The notes under the pieces are model-generated. The model was not told the origin of the DNA, did not search any database, and was given only the letters and a program-made list of their open reading frames with translations. Position numbers and translations under genes: made by a program. This document shows positions 1 to 50,285 of a stretch of DNA of 50,285 nucleotides, in pieces (positions within the stretch are counted from its first letter, which is position 1; each line of letters starts with the position of its first letter). Source of the stretch: a virus. Location of the stretch: the IMG/VR virus record IMGVR_UViG_3300011253_000436, positions 1-50,285 of that record; one strand, given 5' to 3'.

Positions 1-21
1 GCAACCTAAAAAGATTGCTAA
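1..21. repeat. 21-bp terminal overlap marking circular closure (left copy)
   Basis: Identical to 50265-50285. The length and exactness are typical of a k-mer overlap left by an assembler on a circular or circularly permuted genome, rather than a biological terminal repeat. Confidence 0.9.
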
Positions 22-2137
22 GAAAACGGCACAATATAGAAACAAAGGCGGGCTTATGTCTTCTAGCGACGATCTAGTACAAGAAAAAAACGAAGGCGGC
101 TTAGTGTCCGACACTTCTCCTAGAATGGAACGAGCAAGAGAAGCTAAGGAAGAAAGACAGGCATTAGGTGTACCAGAAGACACTACAGTCCAAGACGCAG
201 CTTACTTTGCGGCTTCTTTAGCCCCTGTTACGGGAGAGGCTATTGCTGCAAAAGAGGCACTAGAAAGTTTTGAAAAAGGGGACTACGGCATGGCTACATT
301 GTCTGCCGCCGGAGCCATCCCCTTATTAGGTATGCCCGCACGAGTTGCGGCTAAAGCACTTAAAGCTCCTAAATGGTTTAAGGCATCTGATTCTGTTCCT
401 GACAACATACCGGCTCCTGAAAAAGCACAACTTACTCAAATAAACACTAAGATTTACGATAAAGTAGACTCTTACTTTTCTAAAAATAACACAAAAGGAA
501 AGACACTAGACTACGGTGCAGGGCATGGACATGGGGCTTCTATACTAAAAGCGGACAGCTACGAGCCATTTCCAAAGGATAGATTTGTAGGAGGAAAACC
601 TACATTTTCTTCTAGTGCGGACATACCAAGTGAATCCTACGACAAAATAGTAAACACTTATGTTCTAAACGTAGTTCCTAAAGACGTTAGAGATGGGCTA
701 GTTTCTGAGATGGGTAGAGTACTTAAACCCGGAGGCGAAGCAGTCATAGTCACTAGAGGGACAGATGTATTTGGCTCCAAAGCCCGTCCTGTAAAAGCGG
801 CGCTAGGACCTGAAGACGGTTCTGTAATACTAGCTAAAGGAACCTACCAAAAAGGGTTTACTCCAACTGAATTAAAGGAGTACACTTCCGATATTTTAGG
901 TGAAGGGTTTACTGTAGATATAGTAAATACTTCGGGGACTAGCCCCGGAATTAGATTGACTAAAGCCATAGAAAAACACAAAGGTGGACTTATGTACGGC
1001 AACAAACAAAATAAAAAAATGCATGGCGGGGGCCACGCAAAGAAAGACTATTCAAAATACAAAAAGATGAATATGGGCGGTTACACTGGTGGTATGACTC
1101 AGGCAATGGGGATGAATCCTATGTTTGATGAAACCGAAGAGATGCCACAAATGAACTGCGGTGGGTACATGGGAGGCGGTATGATGTCCGCTGACGTTAT
1201 TGTAGGTATCGACCCTGTTAGTGGCAACGAAATCCCGCTAGGCTCAGACGCTGAGAATGTTAGAGACGATATTCCTGCTATGCTTTCTGAAGACGAATAC
1301 GTCCTTCCGGCTGACGTAGTTAAATGGCATGGTCTAAAGCATATTCAAGAAATGCACGACGAAGCGTCTATGGGTCTAATGTCAATGGCTATGGACGGCC
1401 TTGTGGCTACTGGAGAGCCTGCTGTAAAATCTAAAGATGCAGAGAAAGTTAAGCAAGAATACCGTACTGAAAAGGGATCTAGAAAGACTCCTGAAGGTGT
1501 GGAAGTAGAGCTAACTGCTTACGAAGTAGAAGATAATGCAGATTTAGAAAAAGAAGACGATTCAAAATACAAGTCTAAAGTAAAAGGCAACATGAAAGAG
1601 TATGGTAAGGGTGGTCTTTTAGGCTACGCTGAAGGTGGCCTTGTAGACGACGAAGACCCAGACCCGTATGGTGATTTACTAGACGATGGCTTTGAGTTTG
1701 ATGCTGACATGATGAATGCTGAGATGCTTGAAGAAGTAGCTGCGGAGCAACGTGCTAGAGACAAAGAGCTAGAGCCATATATGCGAGAAGAAAGTCTCAG
1801 TGAAGAAGATGCTGCTGATCTATTTGATGTAGACGAAGACGCGGGCGTTATTGACGTTCCTGATGGCGGTATGGATACTACTCCAGTGTCAGAAGACGAA
1901 GAAATCTCAGAAGACAAAGTAAATAAAGTAGCTGCTGCATTACTAAAGCAAGCAAGCTCATACAGTGGTAGTGGCTCAGAAGGTGCAGCATTTATGTCTG
2001 GCCTAGGCAACGGTGTTAAGATGGCCGAGCTAGGAAAGAAAGTAGGCGACCAGTTAGCTGACTACGAAACTAAAAGTGGTAACAATCCGTTTGGATTCTT
2101 ACGAGACGACAAAGGCTTTTTCCGAAAAAGGGGTTAA
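1..2137 (+). CDS. Virion polyprotein with embedded methyltransferase-like domain (C-terminal part; gene begins at 50068)
   Basis: This frame is open from the first base and joins, in frame, the segment starting at 50068, giving about 777 residues in the circular genome; the ATG at 56 is internal. Order of parts (full-length numbering): basic N-terminus, about 1-80; Ala-rich helical part, about 130-195; class I SAM-methyltransferase-like domain, about 214-389, with motif I LDYGAGHGHG, an acidic turn EPF, YDKIVNTYVLNVVP, and RVLKPGGEAVIV; Gly/Met-rich linker; then a segment with DDIPAMLSEDEYVLPADVV, which I recall from marine podovirus structural proteins; and an acidic C-terminus. KGGL/EGGL hinges separate the parts. 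It sits between portal and scaffold, so a virion or head role is likely. Methylation activity and target are inferred, not shown. Confidence 0.75.
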   Translation, partial: QPKKIAKKTAQYRNKGGLMSSSDDLVQEKNEGGLVSDTSPRMERAREAKEERQALGVPEDTTVQDAAYFAASLAPVTGEAIAAKEALESFEKGDYGMATLSAAGAIPLLGMPARVAAKALKAPKWFKASDSVPDNIPAPEKAQLTQINTKIYDKVDSYFSKNNTKGKTLDYGAGHGHGASILKADSYEPFPKDRFVGGKPTFSSSADIPSESYDKIVNTYVLNVVPKDVRDGLVSEMGRVLKPGGEAVIVTRGTDVFGSKARPVKAALGPEDGSVILAKGTYQKGFTPTELKEYTSDILGEGFTVDIVNTSGTSPGIRLTKAIEKHKGGLMYGNKQNKKMHGGGHAKKDYSKYKKMNMGGYTGGMTQAMGMNPMFDETEEMPQMNCGGYMGGGMMSADVIVGIDPVSGNEIPLGSDAENVRDDIPAMLSEDEYVLPADVVKWHGLKHIQEMHDEASMGLMSMAMDGLVATGEPAVKSKDAEKVKQEYRTEKGSRKTPEGVEVELTAYEVEDNADLEKEDDSKYKSKVKGNMKEYGKGGLLGYAEGGLVDDEDPDPYGDLLDDGFEFDADMMNAEMLEEVAAEQRARDKELEPYMREESLSEEDAADLFDVDEDAGVIDVPDGGMDTTPVSEDEEISEDKVNKVAAALLKQASSYSGSGSEGAAFMSGLGNGVKMAELGKKVGDQLADYETKSGNNPFGFLRDDKGFFRKRG

Positions 2138-3196: not shown

Positions 3197-4264
3197 ATGG
3201 CATTTAATAAAGCAACGGGCCACGGAAATCTACCTAACGGTAACTTCTCGCCTGTCATTTATTCTCAGAAAGTCCAAAAGGCTTTCCGCAAGTCTTCTGT
3301 TGTTGAAGACATTACTAACACTGATTACATGGGTGAAATTGCTAACTTTGGCGACTCAGTTAAAATTATCAAAGAACCTGAAATTTCAGTAAGCTCTTAC
3401 GCTCGCGGCACTCAGATCCAAACTCAGGATCTAGACGACAGCGAGTTTTCATTAAACATCGACCAAGCTAACTACTTTAGCTTCAAGATGGATGACATCG
3501 AAAACGCTCACTCACACGTTAACTTCATGGATATGGCAACTGATCGTGCTGGTTACAAATTGCGTGACACTTTCGATTCAGAAGTATTAGGTTACGCTTC
3601 TGGTTACGCTAAAGGTGCAGACGGCGTTTGGGCAGTTAACACTGCTACTAACGGTGTTGCAGCTAGTTCTACTGCGGGTACGGATGAGTTATTGGCTGCT
3701 AACAAGCTAGAAGAAGCTACTTTTGGTGGTTCTACTGGTGCAGGTACGGCAATCAAGTTGTCTAACGGTACAGACACTGCGGGTTTCGCTTCTCCATTAG
3801 AAGTTTTGAACCGTATGGCTCGTATTATGGATGTTAACAATATCGACACTGAAGATCGTTGGTTTGTTGCTGATCCTGTGTTCTTCGAGCGTTTAATGGA
3901 CGAAGGTTCTAAGTTTGTAAGTGCAGACTTTAACTTGTCTATGGACGGCGACGGCATTATTGCTAACGGTCGAATCGGTAACGGTTTAATTCGTGGCTTT
4001 AAAATCTACAAGTCTAATAACTTACCTTTCTTGGGTACTGGTCCCGGCACTGAGAGTGACACTGCTAGTTCCTCTAACTTTGGTGTTGTTGTTGCTGGTC
4101 ATCAATCTGCTATTGCTTCTGCACAGCAAATTGACAAGACTGAAACTTATCGTGACCCTGACAGCTTCGCTGACATCGTTCGTGGTATGCAATTGTACGG
4201 TCGCAAGATTCTTCGTCCAGAAGCTCTTGTTACTGCTCGATACCAACTTGCTGCGTCTGCATAA
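3197..4264 (+). CDS. Major capsid protein
   Basis: 355 residues, preceded by a strong AAGGAG 8-9 bases upstream. It begins MAFNKATGHGNLPNGNFSP and continues with YSQKVQKAFRKSSVVEDI and GDSVKIIKEPEI, the N-terminal and axial-domain features I recall in capsid proteins of marine podoviruses. A variable Gly/Thr/Ala-rich region (about 145-190) interrupts the core, and the C-terminus carries DIVRGMQLYGRKILRPEAL, a typical capsid ending. Position after the scaffold, length and strong ribosome site agree. A terminator after the next gene suggests the two are made together at high level. The HK97-type fold is inferred. Confidence 0.88.
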   Translation: MAFNKATGHGNLPNGNFSPVIYSQKVQKAFRKSSVVEDITNTDYMGEIANFGDSVKIIKEPEISVSSYARGTQIQTQDLDDSEFSLNIDQANYFSFKMDDIENAHSHVNFMDMATDRAGYKLRDTFDSEVLGYASGYAKGADGVWAVNTATNGVAASSTAGTDELLAANKLEEATFGGSTGAGTAIKLSNGTDTAGFASPLEVLNRMARIMDVNNIDTEDRWFVADPVFFERLMDEGSKFVSADFNLSMDGDGIIANGRIGNGLIRGFKIYKSNNLPFLGTGPGTESDTASSSNFGVVVAGHQSAIASAQQIDKTETYRDPDSFADIVRGMQLYGRKILRPEALVTARYQLAASA

Positions 4265-4845: not shown

Positions 4846-5901
4846 ATGTCTTTAACATATATGGACCTTTGCAATAAGGTACTTCGACGCATCAATGAGG
4901 TTGAGTTTTCTCAGACTGATTTTGATAGCGCCACCGGATTACACGCAGCTACTAAAGATGCTGTGTTACACGCTATTGCAAAAATAAATTCAGCGGAGTT
5001 TGAATGGCCGTTTAACGCCACTACATATACTCAAACTTTGCAAGCAGGAGTAGAGTCTTATCAGTTTCCTAGTGACTTAAAAACTGTAGACTTTAATTCT
5101 TTTCAAATTCAACGTGACGTAAACTCTGTAGTCATCACTAAGATAGACGCAGATACATTCACTTACCCTTTGCCTATTACTAATTTAGGGAACTCAGTGA
5201 ACTCAGCTACGACAGAGACGTACACAGCTAGTACTGGAGACGCTACAGTAGGTGCTATTAATAATACTTCTAGCACAGCTAACGTAGGAGCTATTATAGA
5301 TATAGCTTCTGCTAGCTTATCTAGTAATGTAGTTACGGTAAACACTTCCTCTGCTCATGGTCTAAACACAAACGACACCGTAGGTATATCTAGCCTTGGG
5401 TTTGATGTTACTGACCCTAATAGCGTTAAAGTTGAAAATTTTAGAACACTAAAGAAAATAGAAAGAGACGAATACTTTAATCATGGCAGAGATGCAGATG
5501 CTAACTCTCTGGCCGCCGGTAGGGGTATGCCCGACCATATATTCATGGATCATGGAGTAGGTTCTGGTTTATCTCAGGATTTGTATTTTGGTATAACTCC
5601 TTCGCCAGACAAAGCGTATAAAGTTAAATTTAATTACTTTGCTGTGCCTTTTAAACTTAGTGCATACAACGATATAACTAAGATTCCAGATAACTTCGAG
5701 CACGTTATAGTAGATGGTGCAGTACACTTTATGTTTACTTTTAAAGAGAACATGGATGCTGGACAGCTAGCATTGATGAGTTTCCAGCAAGGCATCAAAG
5801 AGATGCAGAGCCAACTAATAAATTCATACGAAAGAATTACTGACCGTCGTGTAGCATTTGGTGGCGGCAAGATTGGTATCCAAGTAGCTGACAGGGTGTA
5901 A
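4846..5901 (+). CDS. Head-tail adaptor / tail tubular protein, with an inserted beta module
   Basis: 351 residues. Starts MSLTYMDLCNKVLRRINEVE, then an Asn/Trp-containing helix (AKINSAEFEWPFNATTYTQ), as in adaptor proteins of the T7 gp11 / SU10 adaptor type, and ends in long helices (MDAGQLALMSFQQGIKEM) leading to a short basic tail. Residues about 92-195 interrupt the adaptor sequence with a Thr/Ser-rich beta module (DADTFTYPLP, SSNVVTVNTSSAHGL) that recurs in the gene at 8538. The next gene looks like the tail nozzle, so this is probably the ring between portal and nozzle. Assignment is from order and motif recall. Confidence 0.65.
   Translation: MSLTYMDLCNKVLRRINEVEFSQTDFDSATGLHAATKDAVLHAIAKINSAEFEWPFNATTYTQTLQAGVESYQFPSDLKTVDFNSFQIQRDVNSVVITKIDADTFTYPLPITNLGNSVNSATTETYTASTGDATVGAINNTSSTANVGAIIDIASASLSSNVVTVNTSSAHGLNTNDTVGISSLGFDVTDPNSVKVENFRTLKKIERDEYFNHGRDADANSLAAGRGMPDHIFMDHGVGSGLSQDLYFGITPSPDKAYKVKFNYFAVPFKLSAYNDITKIPDNFEHVIVDGAVHFMFTFKENMDAGQLALMSFQQGIKEMQSQLINSYERITDRRVAFGGGKIGIQVADRV
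5119..5430 (+). repeat. Inserted FCCH-like beta module, copy 1
   Basis: Codons about 92-195 of the adaptor gene. The protein motif DADTFT(Y/V)P and the block SSNV(V/L)T(V/I)NTSSAH recur in the gene at 8538 (8982-9272). It resembles the phage module annotated as ubiquitin-activating enzyme E1 FCCH-like, with its two halves in swapped order. Confidence 0.6.
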
Positions 5902-5906
5902 GTATA

Positions 5907-7664
5907 GTGCCAGATCAAACGCAACAACAAACTGTTATATGCCAAGGGGGCTTAGACAACTCAGAAAATCATCTAGCTCTTTCAGATGGTAAAGAGGGTG
6001 TGGCTGCTCGCTTGGTAAACTACGAAGTAGGTGAGTTTGGTGGCTACCGTAGAATAGAAGGGTTTAGCTATCTTAACCCCACAGGTAACAACAACACCGC
6101 AGAGGATAACTCTACTGTCCCCGGAACAGGGTCTATCTTAGGTGTTTTTGTATATCGTGACTTGTATGATTTAGCGGATGATGTTATTGCTATTAGACAG
6201 GTTTCAGGGCAAAGCTACTATTCTATTTACAAAATGCGAGCCGGTAACACATGGCTTAATATATCTGACGGCGGCAAGCTAAACAATCAATCTAGTCAAA
6301 ACTATAGGCCAACTGCTACTGGTGTAAATAGAGTACATATAACTAAGTTTAACGATGATGAAGGTAACAAAATATGTATAACTGACGGGGTAAACCCTGC
6401 GGTTATCTATTGGAATACTACAGGTGGACATAACTTTCAGCAGATCGTATCTACTGGTAATACAAGCTCAACAGATGCTAATGCGGGAGCACCACAGGGC
6501 AGTAGCGGATCTAACGACGGTTACGGGGGCGACCAAGCCATAAACAAACCTAAATGCTCTGCTTTCTACAAGACTAGCTTATATCTAGGTGGTGACGGTT
6601 CTAACGACCAACCTGCTAGTGTAGTGGCTTATAGTGCGGCTTCGGACATCTACGACTTCTCTGCTAGCGGAGGAGCGGCTCAAATACCCGTAGATGTAGA
6701 CGTAGTTAACATGATGCCTTTCCGAGATGACTTATATATATTTGGTCGTACAGGCATAAAAAGAATAAAGCAAAGTGGCACAGATATTATTGCCGAGAAC
6801 GTCACTAGAAACTTAGGGTGTGTAGCTCCTGACAGTGTAGTAGAGATAGGCGGCGACCTTATATTCTTAGCGCAAGATGGATTCCGTCCTGTAGCAGGTA
6901 CAGCTAGAATAGGCGATATAGAATTAGAAACTTTATCTAAGTCTATACAAAGTGACCTTATACATTTATCTAGCACTTACGATTTAGACAGGATGGTATC
7001 TGTAGTTATCCCATCTAAGGCACAAGTACGCTACTTCCTAAACGCAGCTACTCCTACTGATATTTCTGTAGCAGATGCTCCCGGATTTATTGGTGGACTT
7101 CGTACTGAAGATAACACGACGGGATGGGAGTGGGGCCGCATACAAGGTATACAGGCTAACTGTACAGATTCAGGTTACATAGGAAATATAGAGTACATAG
7201 TACATGGCGACCACGCAGGTAAAATATACCAGCAAGAAATAGGCAGCGACTTCAACGGCGCAGATATTACTGCTATTTACGAAACGCCTTACATTGACAT
7301 GGGCGACCCTCTAGTACGAAAGACTATACGAAAAGTAGATGCTTTCATTAGAGCGGAAGGCACTATGACTATGGGCTTAACTCTAGACTTTGATTACGGG
7401 GACCCTGATCTATTTAGGCCTGCGGATCTATCTTCAATAACTGAAGGTGCTATATCAGAGTTCGGTAGGGCAGGCGTTACTTACGTAGATGATGCCGACG
7501 ACGCTTCTATATTTTTATACGGTGGACAGACTAAACCCGTTTTATCTTATCAAATATCTGGCTCTGGGCATTCCGTTCAGTTTAGATTTATAAGTACAGG
7601 TACGTTTGCCCCTTACTCAATCCAAGGGTTGATACTTAAATTCACGACTTCAGGAAAACAATAA
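5907..7664 (+). CDS. Tail nozzle / stabilisation protein (tail tubular B or P22 gp10-like)
   Basis: 585 residues, GTG start 5 bp after the adaptor stop. Opens with CQGGLDNSENHLALSDGKEG and a conserved GGYRRIEGF, typical of the long tail-tube proteins that follow the adaptor. The body is beta-rich with repeated short blades (DDLYIFGRTGIKRI, GDLIFLAQDGFRPV, TGWEWGRIQGIQ), consistent with a propeller plus nozzle. It ends with beta segments (SGSGHSVQFRFISTG), also typical. Overlap-free close packing with adaptor and fibre genes supports tail function. No enzymatic motif seen. Confidence 0.7.
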   Translation: MPDQTQQQTVICQGGLDNSENHLALSDGKEGVAARLVNYEVGEFGGYRRIEGFSYLNPTGNNNTAEDNSTVPGTGSILGVFVYRDLYDLADDVIAIRQVSGQSYYSIYKMRAGNTWLNISDGGKLNNQSSQNYRPTATGVNRVHITKFNDDEGNKICITDGVNPAVIYWNTTGGHNFQQIVSTGNTSSTDANAGAPQGSSGSNDGYGGDQAINKPKCSAFYKTSLYLGGDGSNDQPASVVAYSAASDIYDFSASGGAAQIPVDVDVVNMMPFRDDLYIFGRTGIKRIKQSGTDIIAENVTRNLGCVAPDSVVEIGGDLIFLAQDGFRPVAGTARIGDIELETLSKSIQSDLIHLSSTYDLDRMVSVVIPSKAQVRYFLNAATPTDISVADAPGFIGGLRTEDNTTGWEWGRIQGIQANCTDSGYIGNIEYIVHGDHAGKIYQQEIGSDFNGADITAIYETPYIDMGDPLVRKTIRKVDAFIRAEGTMTMGLTLDFDYGDPDLFRPADLSSITEGAISEFGRAGVTYVDDADDASIFLYGGQTKPVLSYQISGSGHSVQFRFISTGTFAPYSIQGLILKFTTSGKQ

Positions 7665-7665
7665 T

Positions 7666-8538
7666 ATGGCAGGTTACACACGACAATCAGCTTCCAGTAT
7701 TGCGAATGGCGTAGCTATATCTGCCGTTCCTTTAAACAACGAGTTCAACGCTCTGCTTGCGGCATTTGATGCCTCTTCTGGTCATCAGCATGACGGTACT
7801 ACAGGAGATGCCCCTAAGATTGCGTTAGCTACTTCTGTATCTGGTCTACTTCCGCTAGCTAATGGGGGTGTTGCAGGCCTTAACAATGTGACCACATCTA
7901 ATCCCGGTGTTAATAACGACACAGACGAGAGCTACAATATAGGTAGTTTTTGGGGAAATTCTAATACAGATAGAGGTTACTTGTGTTATGATGCTAGTGA
8001 TGGCGCGGCAGTATGGAAAGAATTAGTACATATCAACGCCGCAGGCAATGCAATAGACCCCGGAGCAGATAACACTGTAGACTTGGGTACTAGCTCTAAT
8101 CAATTTAAAGACCTACACATTAACGGTACAGCTAATATAGATGCTCTTGCAGCAGATGCAGCTACTGTTACAGGCATTATCACTGGTTCTGGTGGTATAA
8201 CTTCTTTTATAAACATCCAAGCGTCGGCTTCTAGCACTGTTTCTGCGAGTACTTTTGCAGGCTACGCTAACAAACGAGTAATCTTAACAGGCAGTACTGC
8301 TGCTACTTACGTTCTTCCTGATGCCGTTGTCGGTGATGTAGGCAAGACATGGGTTATCTGTAACGCTAGTAGTGCTGCTATAACCTTAGATGTAGACACT
8401 AACAGCCAGACTGTAACTAAACTTGTAGGTAGCGCGGCTGCTACCACTTCTGATATAACTATTGCCTCTGGTGGTGTTGTAGATTTAGTTTGTACGGCAG
8501 CAGATAATTATATCCTATACGGTAGTGGTATTGCGTAA
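7666..8538 (+). CDS. Tail fibre / appendage protein
   Basis: 290 residues. N-terminal ...VPLNNEFNALLAAFD..SGHQHDGTTGDAPKI is the common anchoring motif of podovirus and myovirus fibres (a FNAL..AF followed by H-x-HDGTTG). After this come PLANGG and a DNTVDLGTSSNQFKDLHI segment, the usual shaft motif, and a beta-rich end (KTWVICNASSAAITLDVD). The start lies one base after the nozzle gene stop. It probably attaches to the tail tube and mediates or supports host recognition. Receptor specificity is not readable. Confidence 0.7.
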   Translation: MAGYTRQSASSIANGVAISAVPLNNEFNALLAAFDASSGHQHDGTTGDAPKIALATSVSGLLPLANGGVAGLNNVTTSNPGVNNDTDESYNIGSFWGNSNTDRGYLCYDASDGAAVWKELVHINAAGNAIDPGADNTVDLGTSSNQFKDLHINGTANIDALAADAATVTGIITGSGGITSFINIQASASSTVSASTFAGYANKRVILTGSTAATYVLPDAVVGDVGKTWVICNASSAAITLDVDTNSQTVTKLVGSAAATTSDITIASGGVVDLVCTAADNYILYGSGIA

Positions 8539-12226: not shown

Positions 12227-12706
12227 ATGAATTTTAGTGCAATTAAAAATGTAATAGGGGCTATTGCTCCTACTCTAGGGACTGCTTTAGGTGGTCCATT
12301 AGGCGGTACTGCGGCTCAAGCTATCAGTGCTGTATTGGGCTGTAAGTCCGACCCTAAGTCTATTGAAACTGCTATGCAGTCTGCTACCCCTGAACAGCTA
12401 GTAGAAATTAAAAAGGCTGAACTAGACTTTGAGACTAAGCTAGCAGAACTAGAAGTAGACATTTTTGCTTTAGAAGCTAAAGACGTACAGGATGCACGAA
12501 AGGCTCACAAAGGGGATTGGACTCCTCGCATTGTAGCTTTAGTATCTTTACTCGGCTTTGTAGGCTACATATTCATGGTAACTATCCAGCCGCCTGACGC
12601 TAACTCTGACACTATCGTTAGTTTAGTTTTAGGTTACTTAGGAGGTGTAGTTAGTTCTATTACTTCTTTTTACTTCGGTGCGAGTCACAAACCAGATGAT
12701 AAATAA
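12227..12706 (+). CDS. Holin (three-TM, GTA-holin-like)
   Basis: 159 residues. A hydrophobic Gly/Ala-rich N-terminal segment (APTLGTALGGPLGGTAAQAI), a charged helix (about 60-95) and two strong C-terminal membrane segments (RIVALVSLLGFVGYIFMVTI and TIVSLVLGYLGGVVSSITSF). This arrangement with KGDWTPRIVAL matches the 3-TM holin family described for gene-transfer-agent release. The next gene, a T4-type lysozyme, starts inside its last codons, so pore formation and endolysin release are coupled. Would act in the inner membrane. Confidence 0.75.
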   Translation: MNFSAIKNVIGAIAPTLGTALGGPLGGTAAQAISAVLGCKSDPKSIETAMQSATPEQLVEIKKAELDFETKLAELEVDIFALEAKDVQDARKAHKGDWTPRIVALVSLLGFVGYIFMVTIQPPDANSDTIVSLVLGYLGGVVSSITSFYFGASHKPDDK

Positions 12707-13112
12707 ACAAAGATTAGTAGAGCAGCTAAAGATACACGAAGGCGTAAAGCTAAAGCCGTATCACTGCACTGCGGATAAATTAACAATTGGTGTAGGCAGG
12801 AATCTAGACGACGTAGGTATATCTGAAGAAGAGGCATCCTACCTTTTAGAAAATGATATTAAGAAATGCCAAGAGCAGTGTACCGCTCAGTTCCCTTGGT
12901 TTGCAGGACTAACTCCCCTACGACAAGAGGCCATTATAAACTTAGTGTTTAACATGGGTATTTCTAAATTCAAACAGTTTAAGAAAACAATTGCTTATAT
13001 ACAAGACGGTCAATTCGACCAAGCCGGTGCTGAGTTACTGGATTCTAATTACGCCCGACAAGTGGGCCAAAGATCAACAGACGTAGCTAATCAGTTAGCT
13101 CAGGAGAAATAG
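12696..13112 (+). CDS. Endolysin 1, T4-type lysozyme (GH24)
   Basis: 138 residues from ATG 12696, which overlaps the holin by 11 bp; an upstream GTG (12678) is less likely. Catalytic layout E15-x8-C24-x5-T30 (HEG ... YHC ... TIG) matches the E/(D or C)/T signature of T4-like lysozymes. Conserved NLVFNMGISKF and the C-terminal DSNYARQVGQRS segment (a Q-x-x-R-x-x-D-type substrate motif) agree. Cleaves the glycan backbone of peptidoglycan. No signal peptide or membrane segment, so it needs the holin. Confidence 0.88.
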   Translation: MINKQRLVEQLKIHEGVKLKPYHCTADKLTIGVGRNLDDVGISEEEASYLLENDIKKCQEQCTAQFPWFAGLTPLRQEAIINLVFNMGISKFKQFKKTIAYIQDGQFDQAGAELLDSNYARQVGQRSTDVANQLAQEK

Positions 13113-13114
13113 AA

Positions 13115-16100
13115 ATGGCAGTAACTTGGAGTTATCCACAAAGTAGTGTAAGAGGTCCCGGCGGTTCGGAGAGAACCACTTCGGCCCCTATGACAGGTAC
13201 ATGGACTTCTGACACCAGAACAACTGAAGCGGGAACCCCATACACTATTCCGGGGTTCACTAGAAGCAAAACTATAAAGTACATCAAGCCATACGCCAAA
13301 ATGGGTGCACCGTACTATTACCCGGACCATACGCAAGCCGCACAAGGTAGGGCAGATTTAACTGCGGAGTATGAACAATACGCCCTAAGTTTCGCGCAAC
13401 AAGCCGAACAAGGGGACCTCGGAACCGCAGTCGCTAATGCCGCTCAGGCAACTATAGAAAATCAAGACTTCCTAGCCGGACAAACTCAAGAGTTCATAGA
13501 CCAAGAAACAATTAGCCCAAACGAAACTAACCAGTTCTTTGAAGATATAGCTGCCGCGTACAATCCCGGTGAGAATCGTGGAGATTTCTACGATAGAAGT
13601 GTGGCAGATCAGCAGACCTCTTTGGATTATTATCAATCGCAGACAGGCTTCGAGGCAGGTAATCTAGACGCTACTGTACAAGGCCAAGTGCAAATTAGAG
13701 ACGACATTTTAAATCAAACTGTCTCCCTAGCATCACAAGATGTAGCTAACGCATTGACTCTTTTAGGGGCTATGGGAATAGACACTTCTACTATGGAAGC
13801 GGTGACTAATCCGGACGGTACTATTAGCTACACTACTCCAGAAGGACAGGATCTAAGCTCAGTTATCTCTGCCCTAGGTACATCTTTAGGGACAAAAATA
13901 GACGAAGCTGGTGCAGCCAACCTAGCAGCATTAGGTTACGGTGGAGAAGGTCAAGACGATCTATTCACAGACATAGGTAGAATCCAAACTACACTAGGCT
14001 CAGGCTTAGATATGAGTGCAGTTACTGGTGCAGTTAGTAAAGGCTTTACGGATCAACAGTCCTACCTTTCCGGTCAGTTCGGGGACATTGCAGGTGATAT
14101 TTCTGGAGTAGGCGGACAGGTAACTGACGTACAAGCTACTGTAGACGCGGTAGAGACTGCGGTGGGTGCGCTAGATACCCGTCAGCTAGACATGGTTACT
14201 AAACTAGATAACTTAGGTGTAGATACTGACGCAATTATCGCCGCAGTAGACGCAGTACAAACTACGGTAGACCCTCTAGGTGCTAGGGTTACAGACTTAG
14301 CGCAAGACACTGCTCGAGGTATCTCAGGCTTAGGTGGCGACGTTTCGGATCTTTTCGGCGGCCAAGACACCACTTCACAAGTAGTCGATGCAGTATCTAC
14401 TCGACTGTCTTCGGATTTAGGCGTAGGAGACTCTAGCTTGTCTTCTATTGCATCTAGTATAGCTACTGTAGGCGAAGCTCAGACAGACGACCAGAAAGTA
14501 TTGGTAGACCAGATTGGTCGAATACAGACTGGCGTTACCAATATGGATAACGCAATAAAAACTAACATCGACGACGAGTTTAAAAACTTAATGACGGTGT
14601 TTGATTCAAATGGTCAGTTAATTACTGATTTTACTAACGCTGCCGGAGAAGAAGTAAAGGCTCAGTTAAACGATGACGGTACTTTAGTAGTATCTACTTT
14701 AACTCAATTAGGGACGGACGTAGGTAACATAGATCTTTCTAGTTTAGATACTATGAAAACCTCTATTGACGCTGCTGCCAGTTCCTTTGATACTGCCGAA
14801 AGTGCGTTAGGCTCTTTTACTTCTTTTGAGACTAAAAGTGCCAATGACCGAAAAGCCGTACTGGATGCTATTAAGGCAGATAGTACTGCGTTAGATACTT
14901 TAATTAGCACTGGTATACCTCAAACTATTAGCACAGGTTTAGCGGACTATAAGTTAGAAGTTGGAGCTAACGATGAGCTTTTAATTAGTAACCTAGCTGA
15001 AGCAGTAGGATTCGACCAAAGTGATGTGGCTTCTGCAACTGCTGCTGCTGTAGGATTTAACCAAAGCAATTTAGTAAGCGCCTTAGACACTGCGGTTGCA
15101 TACGACAGTGCGGCCTTAGTAAGTGCCATTGGCTTTGACCCAACTCAACTTACTTCCGACATTGCTTCTTCGGTAGGGTACAGCCCTAATGCTCTATTAG
15201 ACAAGATTGAACTACTCCAACCTGAAGTATTAACTACTCAAGATTTAAGTAACCTTAGTACGCTGACTGTAGGCGACTTACCTACAGCAGGCTCTATTGC
15301 GGAGGCAGTTAGCTACGATCCGGTAGACTTACTGGCTAAAATAGCCTCTGGTCGTCCAGAAACTTTAACTACAGATGACCTAACGGCACTAAGTACATTA
15401 ACTGTAGAGGACTTGCCTGTAGCTCCTACTACCACAGAAATTGCAGGTGCAGTGAAGTTTGATCTCAATAAACTAGAAACTAACTTAGCTAATGGCGCTT
15501 TAGATGTCGATGACCTATCTGCGTTAAGCACCTTAACTGTAGACGATTTACCTACTGCGGGAGAAATTGCAGGGCAGGTAGACTACGACCCAGAAGATCT
15601 CCTAGCTAAAATTAAATTAGGTCAACCAGAAGTATTAACTCAAGAAGACCTGTCTGTACTTAGCACATTAACTGTAGAGGACTTACCTATAGCCCCTACT
15701 GCTGCTGAAGTTGCCACCGCAGTTGATTACAATCCTACTGAGTTAACTAGCGACTTTACCACTGCTATCACAGACAGCCAAGAGGCACTATCGGAGTTAC
15801 AAGCAGGACAGACTACTACTATAAAGGGTGCGATTGGTACTTACCAAGCTGCGGTAGACGACGAGGGTACTCTTTTAGTATCTGCGTTTAACAATCTAGA
15901 TGGCTCTATTATCGCCTTAGATACAGAAGTAGGTAACATAGATGTTAGCAGCTTAGATACTATCCTAAGTGGCGTACAAGCTATCCCAACTACTGCCCTA
16001 TCGGCTCAACAAGTAACTGACGCTGTAGGGTACAACGCACAGGATCTGTTAGATTCTATCGCCGAAGATGCTTTAACTGACGCAGATTTAGTTAACCTAA

Positions 16101-17236
16101 GTACTCTTACCTTAGATGATATTCCGGCAGCAGGGGAAATTGCCGGAGCAGTTAACTACGATCCTGACGCTTTGATGACTCGTATTAAAGCCGGTAAAGC
16201 CGACGACCTTACCGCAGAGGATCTAACTGCGTTAAGCACTTTAACTACAGACGATTTATCTGATTTAGCGACTCAGGATCTACTAGGTAAAACTTTTGCG
16301 ACTGCTACCCAAGCTAACGCTTCAGTACAAACATCGCTAGGCCCTATAAGCGGAATCAGCACTAACATAGATAATCTACTATCCGCTGCGGACGCTGATG
16401 CTACTGCAAACAGCTTGCGGGATAATGCTATTGCAGATTCTCGCCAAGATGTATTGACCGCGTTGAGCCAAGATGAAGGGGCTATGCGGGCTTTGTTTAG
16501 CCAACAGACTGTGGACATACAAGGTGAGCTAGGGGACTACAATGTACGCATAGACAGCGAAACAGGGAGCATAGTAGCCAGCCAACTAAGCACACAGACC
16601 AGTGATATGTCTGGGCTTATAGACACCGCTACGGGCACTTTACTTGAAGATTCTGCTACTGGCCTCACTGCGTTAGAGCAGGACATTCTAGATAGCAAAA
16701 ACGATCTATACACTACGCTTAACACTTCCTTCACTAACGAAGGCGAATTAATCACTAATGCAATAAACGCTAACGGTGACGATATAACAAGAGTATTAGA
16801 CGATCAAGGTACTCTTACGGAGACCATAACAGACGTAAATGGCATAGTTCAGGATACCGTAGTAACTAACCTCAGCAGTATAATGGACGACACTGGTAGA
16901 ATTAACACTACTGCGCTTGAGATTGCCGCTGATACAAACGCTGAAAGCATATTTAGTACAATGAAAGAAGTATTCGACGATCAAGGCCTACTGAAGACCG
17001 AAGAGTACGATAGGTTTAACAACTTAATTGTTCGGGAGTTTGACGAAAATAACGATATACTAGAGCGGTACTACAACGCAGACGGTACTTTATCTAGTGA
17101 AAGGATACTTGGACTAGAAGAGCTACTGTCTTCTCTTTTCCCAGCCGCTCCTTTGGCAGAAGCTGGGGAACTGACCGGCGCTGACAGAAGATTCCTACAA
17201 GGATTTAGAACGCAAGGCTTGATGTCAGGCGTATAA
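13115..17236 (+). CDS. Giant repeat-rich virion protein
   Basis: 1373 residues, AGGAG site 9 bases before ATG. Residues 1-150: Gly/Pro/Tyr-rich start and a helical part. The rest is low in Cys/Trp/Lys and made of coiled-coil and beta-solenoid-like stretches rich in Asp, Ala, Thr and Leu. Six copies of an LSTLT(V/L/T)(x)D(L/I)P-type unit lie at codons in 15178-15735 and 16024-16270, spaced about 44 residues, between YDPxxLLxKI-like units. Likely a tail fibre/spike or injected protein from size and repeats; no enzymatic motif seen. Start and stop are clear, with the second lysis block just downstream. Confidence 0.7.
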   Translation: MAVTWSYPQSSVRGPGGSERTTSAPMTGTWTSDTRTTEAGTPYTIPGFTRSKTIKYIKPYAKMGAPYYYPDHTQAAQGRADLTAEYEQYALSFAQQAEQGDLGTAVANAAQATIENQDFLAGQTQEFIDQETISPNETNQFFEDIAAAYNPGENRGDFYDRSVADQQTSLDYYQSQTGFEAGNLDATVQGQVQIRDDILNQTVSLASQDVANALTLLGAMGIDTSTMEAVTNPDGTISYTTPEGQDLSSVISALGTSLGTKIDEAGAANLAALGYGGEGQDDLFTDIGRIQTTLGSGLDMSAVTGAVSKGFTDQQSYLSGQFGDIAGDISGVGGQVTDVQATVDAVETAVGALDTRQLDMVTKLDNLGVDTDAIIAAVDAVQTTVDPLGARVTDLAQDTARGISGLGGDVSDLFGGQDTTSQVVDAVSTRLSSDLGVGDSSLSSIASSIATVGEAQTDDQKVLVDQIGRIQTGVTNMDNAIKTNIDDEFKNLMTVFDSNGQLITDFTNAAGEEVKAQLNDDGTLVVSTLTQLGTDVGNIDLSSLDTMKTSIDAAASSFDTAESALGSFTSFETKSANDRKAVLDAIKADSTALDTLISTGIPQTISTGLADYKLEVGANDELLISNLAEAVGFDQSDVASATAAAVGFNQSNLVSALDTAVAYDSAALVSAIGFDPTQLTSDIASSVGYSPNALLDKIELLQPEVLTTQDLSNLSTLTVGDLPTAGSIAEAVSYDPVDLLAKIASGRPETLTTDDLTALSTLTVEDLPVAPTTTEIAGAVKFDLNKLETNLANGALDVDDLSALSTLTVDDLPTAGEIAGQVDYDPEDLLAKIKLGQPEVLTQEDLSVLSTLTVEDLPIAPTAAEVATAVDYNPTELTSDFTTAITDSQEALSELQAGQTTTIKGAIGTYQAAVDDEGTLLVSAFNNLDGSIIALDTEVGNIDVSSLDTILSGVQAIPTTALSAQQVTDAVGYNAQDLLDSIAEDALTDADLVNLSTLTLDDIPAAGEIAGAVNYDPDALMTRIKAGKADDLTAEDLTALSTLTTDDLSDLATQDLLGKTFATATQANASVQTSLGPISGISTNIDNLLSAADADATANSLRDNAIADSRQDVLTALSQDEGAMRALFSQQTVDIQGELGDYNVRIDSETGSIVASQLSTQTSDMSGLIDTATGTLLEDSATGLTALEQDILDSKNDLYTTLNTSFTNEGELITNAINANGDDITRVLDDQGTLTETITDVNGIVQDTVVTNLSSIMDDTGRINTTALEIAADTNAESIFSTMKEVFDDQGLLKTEEYDRFNNLIVREFDENNDILERYYNADGTLSSERILGLEELLSSLFPAAPLAEAGELTGADRRFLQGFRTQGLMSGV
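15178..16270 (+). repeat. Internal LSTLT repeats of the giant protein
   Basis: Tandem and interrupted units of about 130-135 bp encoding LSTLTVxDLPxA followed by VxYDPxxLLAKI. Copies lie near 15255, 15387, 15522, 15657, 16095 and 16227; DNA copies have diverged but the protein pattern is constant. Confidence 0.65.
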
Positions 17237-17524: not shown

Positions 17525-18253
17525 ATGAATATCCCAAACTCAGTATCCCCAGAAGGCATTGCCCTAATTAAACGCTTTGAAGGTTGCCATAAAGTCAACC
17601 CAGATGGCAGCTATCGTTCGTATCGCTGTTTATCAGGTAAGTGGACTATAGGATTCGGGCATACTCAGGCAGTTCGCTCTGGTATGTCTGCTAGTCGAGA
17701 AGTGTGTGAAACCTATCTAGAAGAGGATATGCGTAAAGTATGTGCTCAGATTAAGCAGATAGTAAGTGTACCGTTAAGCCAACCTCAGTTAGATGCTCTA
17801 GCATCCTTTGTGTTTAACGTAGGGTTAGCTGAGTTTAAGAAGTCTGTACTACTCAAAAAACTTAATCTAGGGCAGTACTATTCAGTACCGTCTGAAATGA
17901 CTAAGTGGAACAAAGCTAAAGTAGATGGTGTCGTAACTGAACTATCAGGATTAACTCGCAGAAGGGCAGCAGAAAGCTCTCTGTGGGCTTTAGAAGGGGA
18001 CCTAGGGGAGTTGGAGCCAGTAATGCCTCAACGCCCTCAGATAGCTCCTTTGGCATCTCTAAGCCGCTCCAAGACTATTTGGGGTGCATCCTTCGCAGCA
18101 GCCGGTGTGTTGTGTGCAGAAGTAATTGAACGAATACACTCATTGGCATCTTACTCAAGTGCTGTTGGTTATGTGTGCGTAGCAGTAGCCTTGTGTGGAT
18201 TAGGCACAGTAGCGTACTCAAGAGTAAAAGACCATAAAGAAGGAATACATTAA
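17525..18253 (+). CDS. Endolysin 2, GH24-type lysozyme with C-terminal membrane pair
   Basis: 242 residues. Lysozyme domain about 1-155: E19 (KRFEG), C35 and T41 (CLSGKWTIGFGHT) in an E-x15-C-x5-T layout, FVFNVGLAEFKKS, and LSGLTRRRAAESSLW, the typical endolysin end. Then a Pro-rich linker and two membrane segments at about 184-200 and 211-231, followed by a YSRVKDHKEG basic tail. From memory similar tails occur on some alphaproteobacterial and phage lysins. It could tether the enzyme or act as its own pore. With the gene at 17250 it forms a second, separate lysis unit. Confidence 0.82.
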   Translation: MNIPNSVSPEGIALIKRFEGCHKVNPDGSYRSYRCLSGKWTIGFGHTQAVRSGMSASREVCETYLEEDMRKVCAQIKQIVSVPLSQPQLDALASFVFNVGLAEFKKSVLLKKLNLGQYYSVPSEMTKWNKAKVDGVVTELSGLTRRRAAESSLWALEGDLGELEPVMPQRPQIAPLASLSRSKTIWGASFAAAGVLCAEVIERIHSLASYSSAVGYVCVAVALCGLGTVAYSRVKDHKEGIH

Positions 18254-33220: not shown

Positions 33221-35347
33221 TTAATTAAGATGTGCAATATCAATTTCTTCTTGCTCAAGCCAATCTTTACCTACTTGTATTTCTATATCCAAGGGTAGAC
33301 CAAAGGTATAGTCGTACCTAGTTTGGATCTCTTCACCTACTTCGTACATAGCCCAGTGCAGAGCCTCTACTACCTTATCTAGCTCATCTGGAGCACAATC
33401 TACAACGATAGAATCGTGTACAGATAAGATTATCTTAGATACAAGGTTAAGCTCGTTGAACTTTCGTAAAGCTCTCACACAGGACAATGGAACAATGTCT
33501 GCTGTAGCGAAAGACTGTACAGGGAAGTTTTTTATCTGGGTAGCATTACTAACGCCCCCATTCTTAAAGCGTTTAACATCGGGGAACTTAAACTGGCGGC
33601 CTGATGGTATAGTGATAAGTGTATCTCTAAGTACGCCGGTTATTAGTTCGTCGTGCCAACTCTTTAAACCTTTATATATGTTGAAGTATTCATCGAAGTA
33701 AGCCTTTATGTGCGGAGCTTCTCCCATCCCCATACCACCGTACAGGGGAGCAAAGGTATACGCTTTGGCTGCCTGTCTCTCGTCTTTAGTTATTTGAGAT
33801 TCAGGTTTACGGTTAATGATGCTAGCAGTCTGCCTATGAACGTCCTTACCTTTAGTAATATCACTTATCACTTGTGGGTCTTTAGATAGTTCACCGGCAA
33901 CCCTAAACTCTAGACCGCTAAAGTCAGCTTCTATAATGCTACCACCTTCAAAGCGGGACACTACACAGCTACGGACAGGGAACTTACCGCCCTTCGGTTG
34001 GTTTTGAAAGTTAGGGTTAGAGCTAGATAGCCGCCCAGTCTTAGTTCTACACTGGTTAAACTGTGCGTGTAGCAGACCGTCGCTCCTAGTCCATGTTTCT
34101 ATACCATTAACGAAACTATCTAAGTAAGTAGAGATGGCATTGAGTCTCATGTAACCCTCTAAGAACTCTACCGCCTTATCCTTACCGCTAGCCTTAGCTT
34201 CGCCCACCAGTCTTTTTATCGTGACCTTACTGGTTGAGAACCCATTAACGCATACGTCTTTAACGCCTTGAGGAACCATACCAAAACCGGCAGTCTCTTT
34301 TGTCTGTACTAACAAGTAACCTCTTCCGTTACACACAGCGCAAGTACTAGCTTTTTTATACGGCTCACCATTCTTTTTAGTCTTTAGATACTGGCCTCTA
34401 CCTTTGCAAGTTACACAGTGCTCTGCTTTAGTCTTCTTAGCTACTTTAGTTGTGCGTCTAACGGCCTTAACAAACGCAGCAGGGGTCATCTTAGGCCTAA
34501 ATAAAGGTCTGCCTCTAGGGTTGTAGCCTAGGTTGAACACTTGTTTGTGTTCTCCCTTATTAACGAAATCCCTACTATATATTACCGTTGACATATCCTG
34601 ACCACTGGCTAAATTAACCGGCGTGTCGCCCATAACATCTTCAGTAAGAGCCTGTAACCTAGCCTCTATCTCTTCTTTCTCAGCTAAGTAGTCCTCTTTT
34701 ACACTGGCTAACCGTTTTTGATCTATGAATATACCATTCTCTTCCATGTTCACTAAGAACAATAGAAACTCATTCATTAGATCTAACGTAGGCTTCAGGC
34801 CTTCATTCTCAGGTAAGTCGTAGTCCTTGCATTGGTCTACATATATCTCTGCACAAGAGATTACATCTGCATCAGCGTACTCAATGACAGTGGCTAAGGC
34901 TATCTCCTCAAAGCCTACACCAGATTTAAACTGGGCATCTACTAAGTCAGACTTCTTCAGGGATACTCCTCGTCTCTCTGCCGTTTTAGACAAAGATTTA
35001 GGTATCATCTGGCCTCGGTCAATGACGTACTCCCCTATCATAGTGCAGTAGCACTTCTCAGGTAAGACAAAACCACTACCTTGCAGGGCTAAGATGTCGA
35101 ACTTGGCATTGTGAGCTACTAAAAGGTCTGCACCATCAAGCGCTTCTTGCAATTCTACAGGGCAGTCCGGTACTTCCTGTTCGTTATGGTAAAAGATAGC
35201 TCTCTTAGGCTCTCCCACAAACTCTGTGCCTTCCATCATATGCCAGTGGGCAGACACTAATTTGTTCTTCGGATGAAACGGAGCGTTATCTATAACTCCA
35301 TTCTCTCTCTGTACAGTTGTTTCACAATCTATAATAATCGTCTTCAT
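33221..35347 (-). CDS. DNA polymerase, family A, with inserted DnaJ-type zinc finger
   Basis: 708 residues. 3'-5' exonuclease about 1-180 (D7, E9, D84, and D159/D161 in YADAD). Zinc finger about 308-345 with two CxxCxGxG repeats, C311/C314 (CVTCKGRG) and C336/C339 (CAVCNGRG), i.e. half a DnaJ central domain. Polymerase: TGRLSSSNPNFQNQP, motif A ADFSGLEFR (D475), motif B R524-K528-F532, motif C SVHDS (D645). F532 equals E. coli position 762 (Phe). This architecture is, from memory, that of HMO-2011. It replicates the genome with the helicase and primase nearby. Confidence 0.95.
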   Translation of the reverse strand: MKTIIIDCETTVQRENGVIDNAPFHPKNKLVSAHWHMMEGTEFVGEPKRAIFYHNEQEVPDCPVELQEALDGADLLVAHNAKFDILALQGSGFVLPEKCYCTMIGEYVIDRGQMIPKSLSKTAERRGVSLKKSDLVDAQFKSGVGFEEIALATVIEYADADVISCAEIYVDQCKDYDLPENEGLKPTLDLMNEFLLFLVNMEENGIFIDQKRLASVKEDYLAEKEEIEARLQALTEDVMGDTPVNLASGQDMSTVIYSRDFVNKGEHKQVFNLGYNPRGRPLFRPKMTPAAFVKAVRRTTKVAKKTKAEHCVTCKGRGQYLKTKKNGEPYKKASTCAVCNGRGYLLVQTKETAGFGMVPQGVKDVCVNGFSTSKVTIKRLVGEAKASGKDKAVEFLEGYMRLNAISTYLDSFVNGIETWTRSDGLLHAQFNQCRTKTGRLSSSNPNFQNQPKGGKFPVRSCVVSRFEGGSIIEADFSGLEFRVAGELSKDPQVISDITKGKDVHRQTASIINRKPESQITKDERQAAKAYTFAPLYGGMGMGEAPHIKAYFDEYFNIYKGLKSWHDELITGVLRDTLITIPSGRQFKFPDVKRFKNGGVSNATQIKNFPVQSFATADIVPLSCVRALRKFNELNLVSKIILSVHDSIVVDCAPDELDKVVEALHWAMYEVGEEIQTRYDYTFGLPLDIEIQVGKDWLEQEEIDIAHLN

Positions 35348-40741: not shown

Positions 40742-41422
40742 ATGAATTACTCATTGCATCAACCTAGCACCGGCAACAAGGTTTCCCCCATATACCGAAC
40801 GTATTCTCATAAAGACACTTGCCCCAATACTTGCCCATTAAAGGCCGGCGGCGGCTGTTACGCTGAAAATTTTCACACTAACCTACATTGGGATAAGGTA
40901 ACCAAAGGCGAGCGCGGCGTTAACTGGGATTCATTCCTTGAAGCTGTCGACGATATACCGCGCCGGTCAACTGTACGTCATAACATAGGCGGCGACCTGC
41001 CACACAATAGTGGCGCGATAGATTCCGATAATATGGCCGCGTTAACTAAGGCGATAACTAGTCGCAATAAAACCGGCTTCACTTATACGCACCACCAACT
41101 AACCGAGCACAATACCGCCGAGTTATTAAAGGCGAATAAAGCCGGCTTCACTGTTAACGTGAGCGCCAACAATACCGCCGAAGCTGTCCGGATACATAAG
41201 CATACTGGTTTACCGGTTGCAACCTTGCTTCCAATGGATGCGCCTAACGTCCAAACTATAGACGGCGTTAAAATTGTGGCTTGTCCGGCGGAAAAGTCAA
41301 AGCGCGTGACTTGTGCCACTTGTGCGGATTCTTTTTGTGCGGCGCGTGAACGTGATTTTATAGTAGGTTTCCGCGCTCATGGCTCAAAAAAGAAAAACGC
41401 CGACCTTATAGCTAGCGCGTGA
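40742..41422 (+). CDS. Cysteine-cluster protein (DUF7227-like)
   Basis: 226 residues. N-terminal CPNTCPLKAGGGCYAENFH (C28, C32, C40) and C-terminal CPAEKS...TCATCADSFCAARE, then FIVGFRAHGSKKK. This CP-x-x-CPL...GGCYAE start and C..C...C / I-x-F-x-x-HG end is a pattern I recall from phage and plasmid proteins (DUF7227); the Cys groups probably bind Fe-S or zinc. I considered radical-SAM Gp37/Gp68-type proteins, but the Cys spacing differs. Codons are GCG/GCC/CGC/GGC-rich, unlike the rest of the phage, with its own promoter and terminator. Function unknown. Confidence 0.6.
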   Translation: MNYSLHQPSTGNKVSPIYRTYSHKDTCPNTCPLKAGGGCYAENFHTNLHWDKVTKGERGVNWDSFLEAVDDIPRRSTVRHNIGGDLPHNSGAIDSDNMAALTKAITSRNKTGFTYTHHQLTEHNTAELLKANKAGFTVNVSANNTAEAVRIHKHTGLPVATLLPMDAPNVQTIDGVKIVACPAEKSKRVTCATCADSFCAARERDFIVGFRAHGSKKKNADLIASA

Positions 41423-45216: not shown

Positions 45217-45606
45217 ATGGCTGACGAAAAGAAATACACTGAGAAGCAAGAAGCCTTCCTAGAAGCCCTGTGTGGCGACGCTAGAGGTTCCATAAGAGAA
45301 GCTATGAACATAGCGGGCTATTCTTCTCAGACACGCACTAAAGAGGTCGTAGAGCCTCTCAAAGATGAAATTGTAGAACGAGCTAGTACGATGCTTGCAA
45401 TGAATGCCCCTAGAGCGGCTTTTTCGTTGACAGGTGTCCTAGTAGACCCTTCTCAGGTGGGAGCCAGAAATGCTGTTGCGGCTGCAACGCAGGTACTAGA
45501 TCGTGTAGGTCTGGTTAAAAAAGAAAAGATAGAAGTGTCTACCTCTACTGGTGGCATCTTTATCTTACCCCCTAAAGAAGTCGTGAATGAGCAAATGGAA
45601 GAATAA
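45217..45606 (+). CDS. terS: Terminase small subunit
   Basis: 129 residues, 3 bp after the basic protein. N-terminal EKQEAFLEALCGDARGSIRE and AMNIAGYSSQT is a small-terminase helix-turn-helix start; then a long helix (NAVAAATQVLDRVGLVKKE) and a C-terminal tail GGIFILPPKE that typically contacts TerL. Overlaps TerL by 20 bp. Recognises the packaging site; which site is not visible here. Confidence 0.75.
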   Translation: MADEKKYTEKQEAFLEALCGDARGSIREAMNIAGYSSQTRTKEVVEPLKDEIVERASTMLAMNAPRAAFSLTGVLVDPSQVGARNAVAAATQVLDRVGLVKKEKIEVSTSTGGIFILPPKEVVNEQMEE

Positions 45607-49887: not shown

Positions 49888-50068
49888 AAAGAAAGCTAAG
49901 TCTACCGTAAACGCAGCAGGCAACTACACTAAGCCTACGATGCGTAAGACTCTTTTTAATAAGATAAAAGCTAGTACTAAGGGCGGTAAGGCGGGACAGT
50001 GGTCCGCTAGAAAAGCCCAGATGTTAGCTAAACAGTACAAAGCTAAAGGCGGGGGCTACAAGTCGTAA
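49877..50068 (+). CDS. Small basic conserved marine-phage protein
   Basis: 63 residues; ATG 11 bp inside the previous gene. MAAKKKAKSTVNAAGNYTKP, KGGKAGQWSARKAQMLAKQY and KAKGGGYKS; I recall this NAAGNYTKP...GQWSARKAQMLA pattern from marine phage proteins. Very basic; probably a virion or DNA-associated component. Confidence 0.65.
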   Translation: MAAKKKAKSTVNAAGNYTKPTMRKTLFNKIKASTKGGKAGQWSARKAQMLAKQYKAKGGGYKS

Positions 50069-50285
50069 TGGCCTTAAAGAAATCACAAAAGTCTTTAAAG
50101 GATTGGACAGACCAAGATTGGAGTACTAAGTCTGGTAAAAAGTCTTCTGAGACTGGAGAAAGGTATTTACCTAAGTCTGCTATAGATTCCCTTAGTTCGC
50201 AAGAGTATGCAGCTACTACTAAGAAGAAACGAGACGACAGTAAGAAAGGTAAACAACACTCTAAGCAACCTAAAAAGATTGCTAA
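50068..50285 (+). CDS. Start of the virion polyprotein (continues at 1-2137)
   Basis: 72 full codons, no stop before the window end; joined through the 21-bp overlap to the frame ending at 2137. MALKKSQKSLKDWTDQDW, KSGKKSSETGERYLPK, SLSSQEYAATTKKKRDDSKK and KQPKKIAKKTAQYRNKGGLM: a basic domain that I recall at the start of marine phage structural proteins. TAATG overlap with the previous gene decides the start. Confidence 0.75.
   Translation, partial: MALKKSQKSLKDWTDQDWSTKSGKKSSETGERYLPKSAIDSLSSQEYAATTKKKRDDSKKGKQHSKQPKKIA
50265..50285. repeat. 21-bp terminal overlap (right copy)
   Basis: Identical to 1-21; see the left copy. The reading frame is continuous across the junction, which supports true circularity of the assembly. 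Confidence 0.9.

Follow-up and report, generated by a model that had tools for sequence, protein, structure and literature searches.

A predicted methyltransferase within a swappable cassette of a capsid-block protein from an HMO-2011-type podovirus

Introduction

Polyvalent proteins, as treated in the sections of Iyer et al. 2017 (PMC5512222) used here, are large multidomain phage proteins that combine unrelated enzymes and are predicted to act at entry. Those sections count ART-PolyVal, LPD38, and LPD23 among the partner domains and rank the LPD36-adenine-methyltransferase-SNF2 type third in prevalence among polyvalent domains. They also hold a precedent for a methyltransferase that travels with the particle, the virion-borne adenine methyltransferase DarB of phage P1. 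A second point of comparison is the HMO-2011 type of phage, for which a DnaJ zinc-finger insert in the DNA polymerase is a known feature (PMC6918029). Here we describe a methyltransferase (MTase) domain within a 777-amino-acid protein, encoded on a 50,285-nt stretch of viral DNA that was analyzed whole and is called the window.

Results

The window comes from an HMO-2011-type podovirus, an ocean bacteriophage of a common type. This assignment follows from the gene order (portal, variable protein, capsid) and from a DNA polymerase whose DnaJ-type zinc-finger insert carries the CXXCXGXG motif. The gene for the 777-aa protein sits between the portal gene and the genes for a phrog_13678 protein and the major capsid protein:

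45587-47443, + strand: terminase large subunit
47444-49651, + strand: portal protein, upstream of the 777-aa gene
50068-50285, + strand: codons 1-66 of the 777-aa protein, its basic N-terminal region (codons at 50068-50264; the final 21 nt repeat window positions 1-21)
2-2137, + strand: the other 711 codons of this protein and stop
2181-2993, + strand: phrog_13678 protein, scaffold-like by position
3197-4264, + strand: major capsid protein, downstream
33221-35347, - strand: DNA polymerase with CVTCKGRG and CAVCNGRG, two CXXCXGXG DnaJ-type repeats between the exonuclease and polymerase parts

The two contig ends overlap by 21 nt, and the reading frame runs from 50068 to 2137 across their junction, with 711 aa visible within positions 2-2137. 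The junction is real, because IMG/VR contig L021 carries the whole 777-aa protein as a single unbroken ORF (5446-7776; 711/711 shared residues identical), and an end-join artefact is thereby ruled out. The N-terminus of the protein is also present in L021, L022, L101, and L102. The homologous genes of HMO-2011-type phages are annotated as hypothetical proteins, and a full-length AlphaFold model was unusable (pLDDT 43). An earlier reading of the DNA letters alone (the sequence-only reading) called the product a virion polyprotein, a label that its gene position suggests.

Other parts of the window hold further features of note. Residues 13 to 66 of the terminase match the integrase family phrog_95 (E=3.6e-4), possibly a recombinase-like domain fused to the terminase. 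Two ORFs that read as lysozyme-like (12678-13112 and 17525-18253) flank a 1373-aa protein (13115-17236) with no match in a PHROG search, and the ORF at 40742-41422 encodes a cysteine cluster, CPxxCPLK...GGCYA.

The predicted layout of the 777-aa protein is a basic N-terminus, an exchangeable cassette composed of a hydrophobic hairpin and the MTase, and a conserved C-terminal segment:

44-62, + strand: left border repeat AAAGGCGGGCTTATGTCTT, encoding KGGLMS, where identity to L101 ends
62-969, + strand: swappable cassette (hairpin and MTase), with 341 unrelated nt in its place in the near-isogenic L101
194-364, + strand: hydrophobic hairpin (DAAYFAASLAPVTGEAIAA...GDYGMATLSAAGAIPLLGMPARVAAKALK) upstream of the MTase, a feature of cargo-bearing and not of cargo-less proteins
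404-970, + strand: class I SAM-dependent MTase domain, from Pfam, conservation, AlphaFold, Foldseek, and dN/dS
about 506-535, + strand: motif I, LDYGAGHGHG
about 560-571, + strand: motif II, YEPF
about 653-679, + strand: motif IV position, NTYVLNVVP
about 752-760, + strand: TRG
about 848-859, + strand: QKGF
980-998, + strand: right border repeat AAAGGTGGACTTATGTACG, encoding KGGLMY; identity to L101 resumes just before it
1193-1405, + strand: conserved C-terminal segment of HMO-2011-type phages (DPVSGNEIP..NVRDDIPAMLSEDEYVLPADVVKWHGLKHI)

Several lines of evidence identify the MTase domain. The sequence-only reading had placed a class I SAM-methyltransferase signature at residues 214 to 389 or so; residue 214 does correspond to window nucleotide 443, the motifs it quoted are present, and the borders prove slightly wider (residues about 200-389, nucleotides about 404-970). 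The region matches Pfam Methyltransf_23 at E=9.2e-8, which exceeds the gathering cut-off, and also contains RVLKPGG. Structure prediction, which that reading had proposed as a check, gives a class I Rossmann-like alpha/beta fold: an AlphaFold2 model of the domain built with 35 homologues has the class I elements (pLDDT 90.7, pTM 0.87). With this model, Foldseek reached E<=1e-3 for 861 PDB chains. The best 50 of the 861 are SAM-methyltransferases, led by METTL6 (E 4.7e-9) and followed by toxoflavin N-methyltransferases and peptide or natural-product methyltransferases. These best neighbours have TM-scores of about 0.5-0.68 at ∼15% sequence identity.

The domain is also strongly conserved. Loss of the motif I glycines in all relatives had been named as a sign against an enzyme, and both G48 and G50 are kept in 35/35 homologues, as are D44, E62, N97, R126, and Q157-K-G-F160. 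Altogether, 28 columns are invariant in this alignment at 40 to 50% identity, including SAM-binding positions, such as those of the GxGxG-like motif I loop and the acidic motif II residue that follows strand 2, and residues particular to the subfamily (TR..D, E145, QKGF, EL). The dN/dS ratio is ∼0.12 against the 83%-identical domain of L022 and 0.07-0.14 in the other usable pairs; the pair L072/L091 was left out because its coordinates were wrong (28% identity). The E-values, structure prediction, and dN/dS together rule out a chance motif as the source of the signature. The domain is apparently an active SAM-dependent enzyme, as predicted from sequence and model, of a phage-specific subfamily.

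The cassette has been exchanged as a unit. Between L101 and the window, the flanks are 97.5% and 94.6% identical at the DNA level, and each cassette border falls at one of two nearly identical repeats, AAAGGCGGGCTTATG and AAAGGTGGACTTATG, both encoding KGGLM. A GG-linker follows the MTase domain in 16/39 cases, where about 5.6 are expected, which is suggestive only. Scans with the C-terminal segment recovered 139 unique proteins with N-terminal parts of 12 to 1470 aa; the MTase is fused in 3/114 unique proteins from such scans and is thus a minority cargo. The 57 non-MTase cargos of the HMO-2011 slot include Hydrolase_2 (9/57), PF25735 (9/57), LPD23 (5/57), DUF7178 (2/57), and ART-PolyVal (2/57), as well as CHAP and NLPC/P60. 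A comparable swap, independent of that in L101, is seen in cluster C mycobacteriophages, where LinStu, HyRo, and Specks carry PF25735 at the position of the Bigswole MTase. PF25735 (Phage_L5_gp82) occurs both in mycobacteriophage head-protease proteins and in HMO-2011 slots (L252, residues 557-674; L253; L254; L128). With the MTase and PF25735 in both slots, two unrelated phage groups use the same cargo repertoire.

The hairpin upstream of the MTase occurs almost only in proteins with cargo. Its profile matches 42/98 MTase proteins and 33/87 proteins with other cargos (75/185 together), 0/66 cargo-less proteins, and 3/753 other ORFs, all three of which end just upstream of a C-terminal-segment ORF. 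Because the profile was seeded from the same cargo and MTase proteins, only its specificity is informative, and the hairpin is absent from 56/98 MTase proteins. Where present, it may aid translocation. In the close relatives L022 (4372-7824) and L031 (4600-8844), HExxH zincin-like stretches (HEYQH, HEYTH) also lie upstream of the MTase.

A profile-style scan found relatives of the MTase subfamily on at least 279 viral contigs, of which the best 80 were retained. Cellular genomes yielded seven loci in about 85,000, the 72,556 plasmids scanned yielded none, and 12 of 50,697 isolate phage records carry the domain. From these counts, the subfamily is essentially phage-specific. The isolates, which include CRP-3, CRP-738, Bigswole, Myrna, and HTVC103P/104P, infect roseobacters, SAR11, Microcystis, and mycobacteria. 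In the MTase tree, a single clade of HMO-2011 MTases is rejected (p-AU 9e-5), which supports transfer between phage groups. This result depends on two tree rows: without L055 and L033, the single clade is not rejected (p 0.23). The tree therefore does not demonstrate a separate acquisition by the window's own lineage.

Discussion

The predicted fold, conservation of the SAM site, purifying selection, gene position, exchange at precise borders, and recurrence in unrelated phages are all directly supported. Beyond these, we consider it fairly probable that this head-block gene encodes a modular 777-aa protein of polyvalent type whose MTase is packaged, injected, and active early in infection on something other than DNA bases. 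The protein would be packaged in or on the virion and enter the cell together with the viral DNA, helped by the hydrophobic hairpin and, in relatives, also by a fused wall hydrolase. In the first stages of infection, the MTase would then methylate a protein, an RNA, or a small molecule of the host or the phage, for counter-defence or host take-over, and would not act on DNA bases.

The relatives point toward the particle. In 53/95 of them, the MTase gene adjoins a portal, capsid, or terminase gene that can be recognised by comparison with the window. In mycobacteriophage Bigswole, two segments precede the MTase, one matching a head maturation protease (8.7e-19) and the other endolysin-like; the homologue in Rhodococcus phage E3 is annotated as a prohead protease; and the gene beside the one for MTase-bearing gp97 of Myrna encodes gp98, a minor capsid protein (PMC7150772). 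The MTase of pelagiphage HTVC104P precedes a lysozyme with a match to an "internal virion lysozyme motif" (5e-9), that of CRP-3 follows a cell-wall hydrolase (Hydrolase_2), and others are fused with ART-PolyVal, LPD38, or LPD23. CRP-3, MD07, L046, L051, and L073 each combine at least two unrelated effector or enzymatic domains in a polypeptide; in the window protein, a single enzymatic domain is recognised. It is with these polyvalent-domain and head-protein partners that a delivered, polyvalent-type effector fits. DUF7178 is another recurrent MTase partner (15/98 loci, e.g., L003 5677-8181, L005, L002, L014, and L004 5645-7156). Its invariant K...TVDTH resembles HhH-GPD glycosylases, and comparison with solved structures gave no convincing match to such an enzyme.

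Could the MTase instead act inside the producing cell, as an ordinary late protein that serves assembly or host take-over and is never delivered? Some MTases are indeed stand-alone ORFs of 193-250 aa, CRP-738 has separate ORFs for MTase and C-terminal segment, and L101 likewise separates cargo from C-terminal segment, so covalent fusion is not essential. Sister phages also carry separate, unrelated methyltransferase genes near their capsid genes, apparently of other subfamilies (CRP-345 gp61, L020 8162-8863; CRP-9 gp51, L018 8541-9071). Our literature search found no virion proteomics covering the 777-aa protein or any MTase homologue, whether from HMO-2011-type phages or Myrna (gp97), a point in favour of an intracellular role. 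Against it, relatives of the MTase are fused time and again to partners that typify particle-borne or injected proteins: a head-maturation protease, wall hydrolases, lysozyme, and polyvalent ART/LPD domains. We regard a purely intracellular role as unlikely.

As for the target, the MTase would most likely act on a protein, an RNA, or a small molecule. The nearest characterised folds act on tRNA, peptides, and small molecules, and ∼15% identity cannot fix the substrate. The sequence-only reading had included incoming DNA among the targets, and this is the part that does not hold up well. The motif IV position reads N-x-x-V-L-N-V-like in homologues rather than the [DNS]PP[YFW] of N6-adenine and N4-cytosine amino-methyltransferases; the domain has zero cysteines and hence no PC motif of a C5-cytosine methyltransferase; and neither a target-recognition domain nor an SNF2 helicase was recognised as a partner. 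These features make DNA-base methylation unlikely, and the domain is not of the LPD36-adenine-MTase-SNF2 type. What stood of the polyvalent-type effector proposal is a conserved MTase in a modular capsid-block protein, with polyvalent and head-protein partners in relatives.

An injected enzyme that methylates the bases of the incoming genome, as a DarB-like anti-restriction enzyme, would suit a location among head genes, and the domain has weak similarity to PADLOC mad2 and to TIGR04096, a putative methyltransferase family associated with DNA phosphorothioation (8/10 members match over most of the MTase domain, the best at 7e-8). The missing DNA-methyltransferase motifs and partners speak against such an enzyme, as do the best structural neighbours, which are non-DNA methyltransferases (tRNA-modifying METTL6, toxoflavin N-methyltransferases, peptide methyltransferases). 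The window domain itself scores 16 bits against TIGR04096, far from the 150-bit curated cut-off, and a genome search returned no TIGR04096 match in the window; we treat the relation to TIGR04096 and mad2 as a lead only. We therefore hold a DarB-like role to be quite improbable. A catalytically dead SAM-fold insert, kept as spacer or scaffold, is very improbable indeed: other regions of the protein do receive low-confidence structure predictions, but SAM-site and subfamily polar residues stay invariant at 40-50% identity under dN/dS of 0.07-0.14, and the cassette is sometimes absent altogether and so is not a required spacer.

Returning to the delivered, non-DNA MTase, a more ambitious version is possible and, to us, tentative. 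The MTases would form a phage-specific, virion-delivered family that modifies a host protein, RNA, metabolite, or defence component as the DNA enters. They would be one kind of effector module among several that can replace each other (MTase, PF25735, ART, DUF7178, and others), placed behind a translocating hairpin and exchanged among unrelated phage families at short repeats that encode GGLM linkers. If the variable half is a slot for injected effectors, then swapped cargos in near-identical phages would make virion-borne effector function directly testable. If the proposal is true, phages would carry out non-DNA methylation at entry, an activity we did not find described for phages in the literature we consulted.

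How does this locus compare with known systems? With HMO-2011-type phages (Qin et al. 2022, PMC9038755; CRP-1/2/3, PMC6918029) the window shares the portal-to-capsid order, the polymerase insert, and the C-terminal segment; the main text of PMC9038755 makes no mention of a methyltransferase. TIGR04096 is a family of 478 positions with unproven function, whereas the window MTase sits among phage capsid genes. DarB is similar in having a methyltransferase domain in a virion-linked protein, but it is an EcoKI/TaqI-like N6-adenine MTase with an SNF2 helicase, while the window MTase lacks NPPY and helicase and belongs to another subfamily. The closest likeness is to polyvalent proteins, and it lies in the MTase relatives, with their ART-PolyVal, LPD23, and LPD38 domains, zincin-like HExxH stretches, and wall hydrolases. 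The MTases discussed in the sections of PMC5512222 used here are of the adenine-MTase/SNF2/LPD36 type, unlike that of the window, and we found in those sections no description of an exchangeable cassette bounded by GGLM repeats. Polyvalent, virion-borne effectors are an already known kind, and the window MTase is a variant of it.
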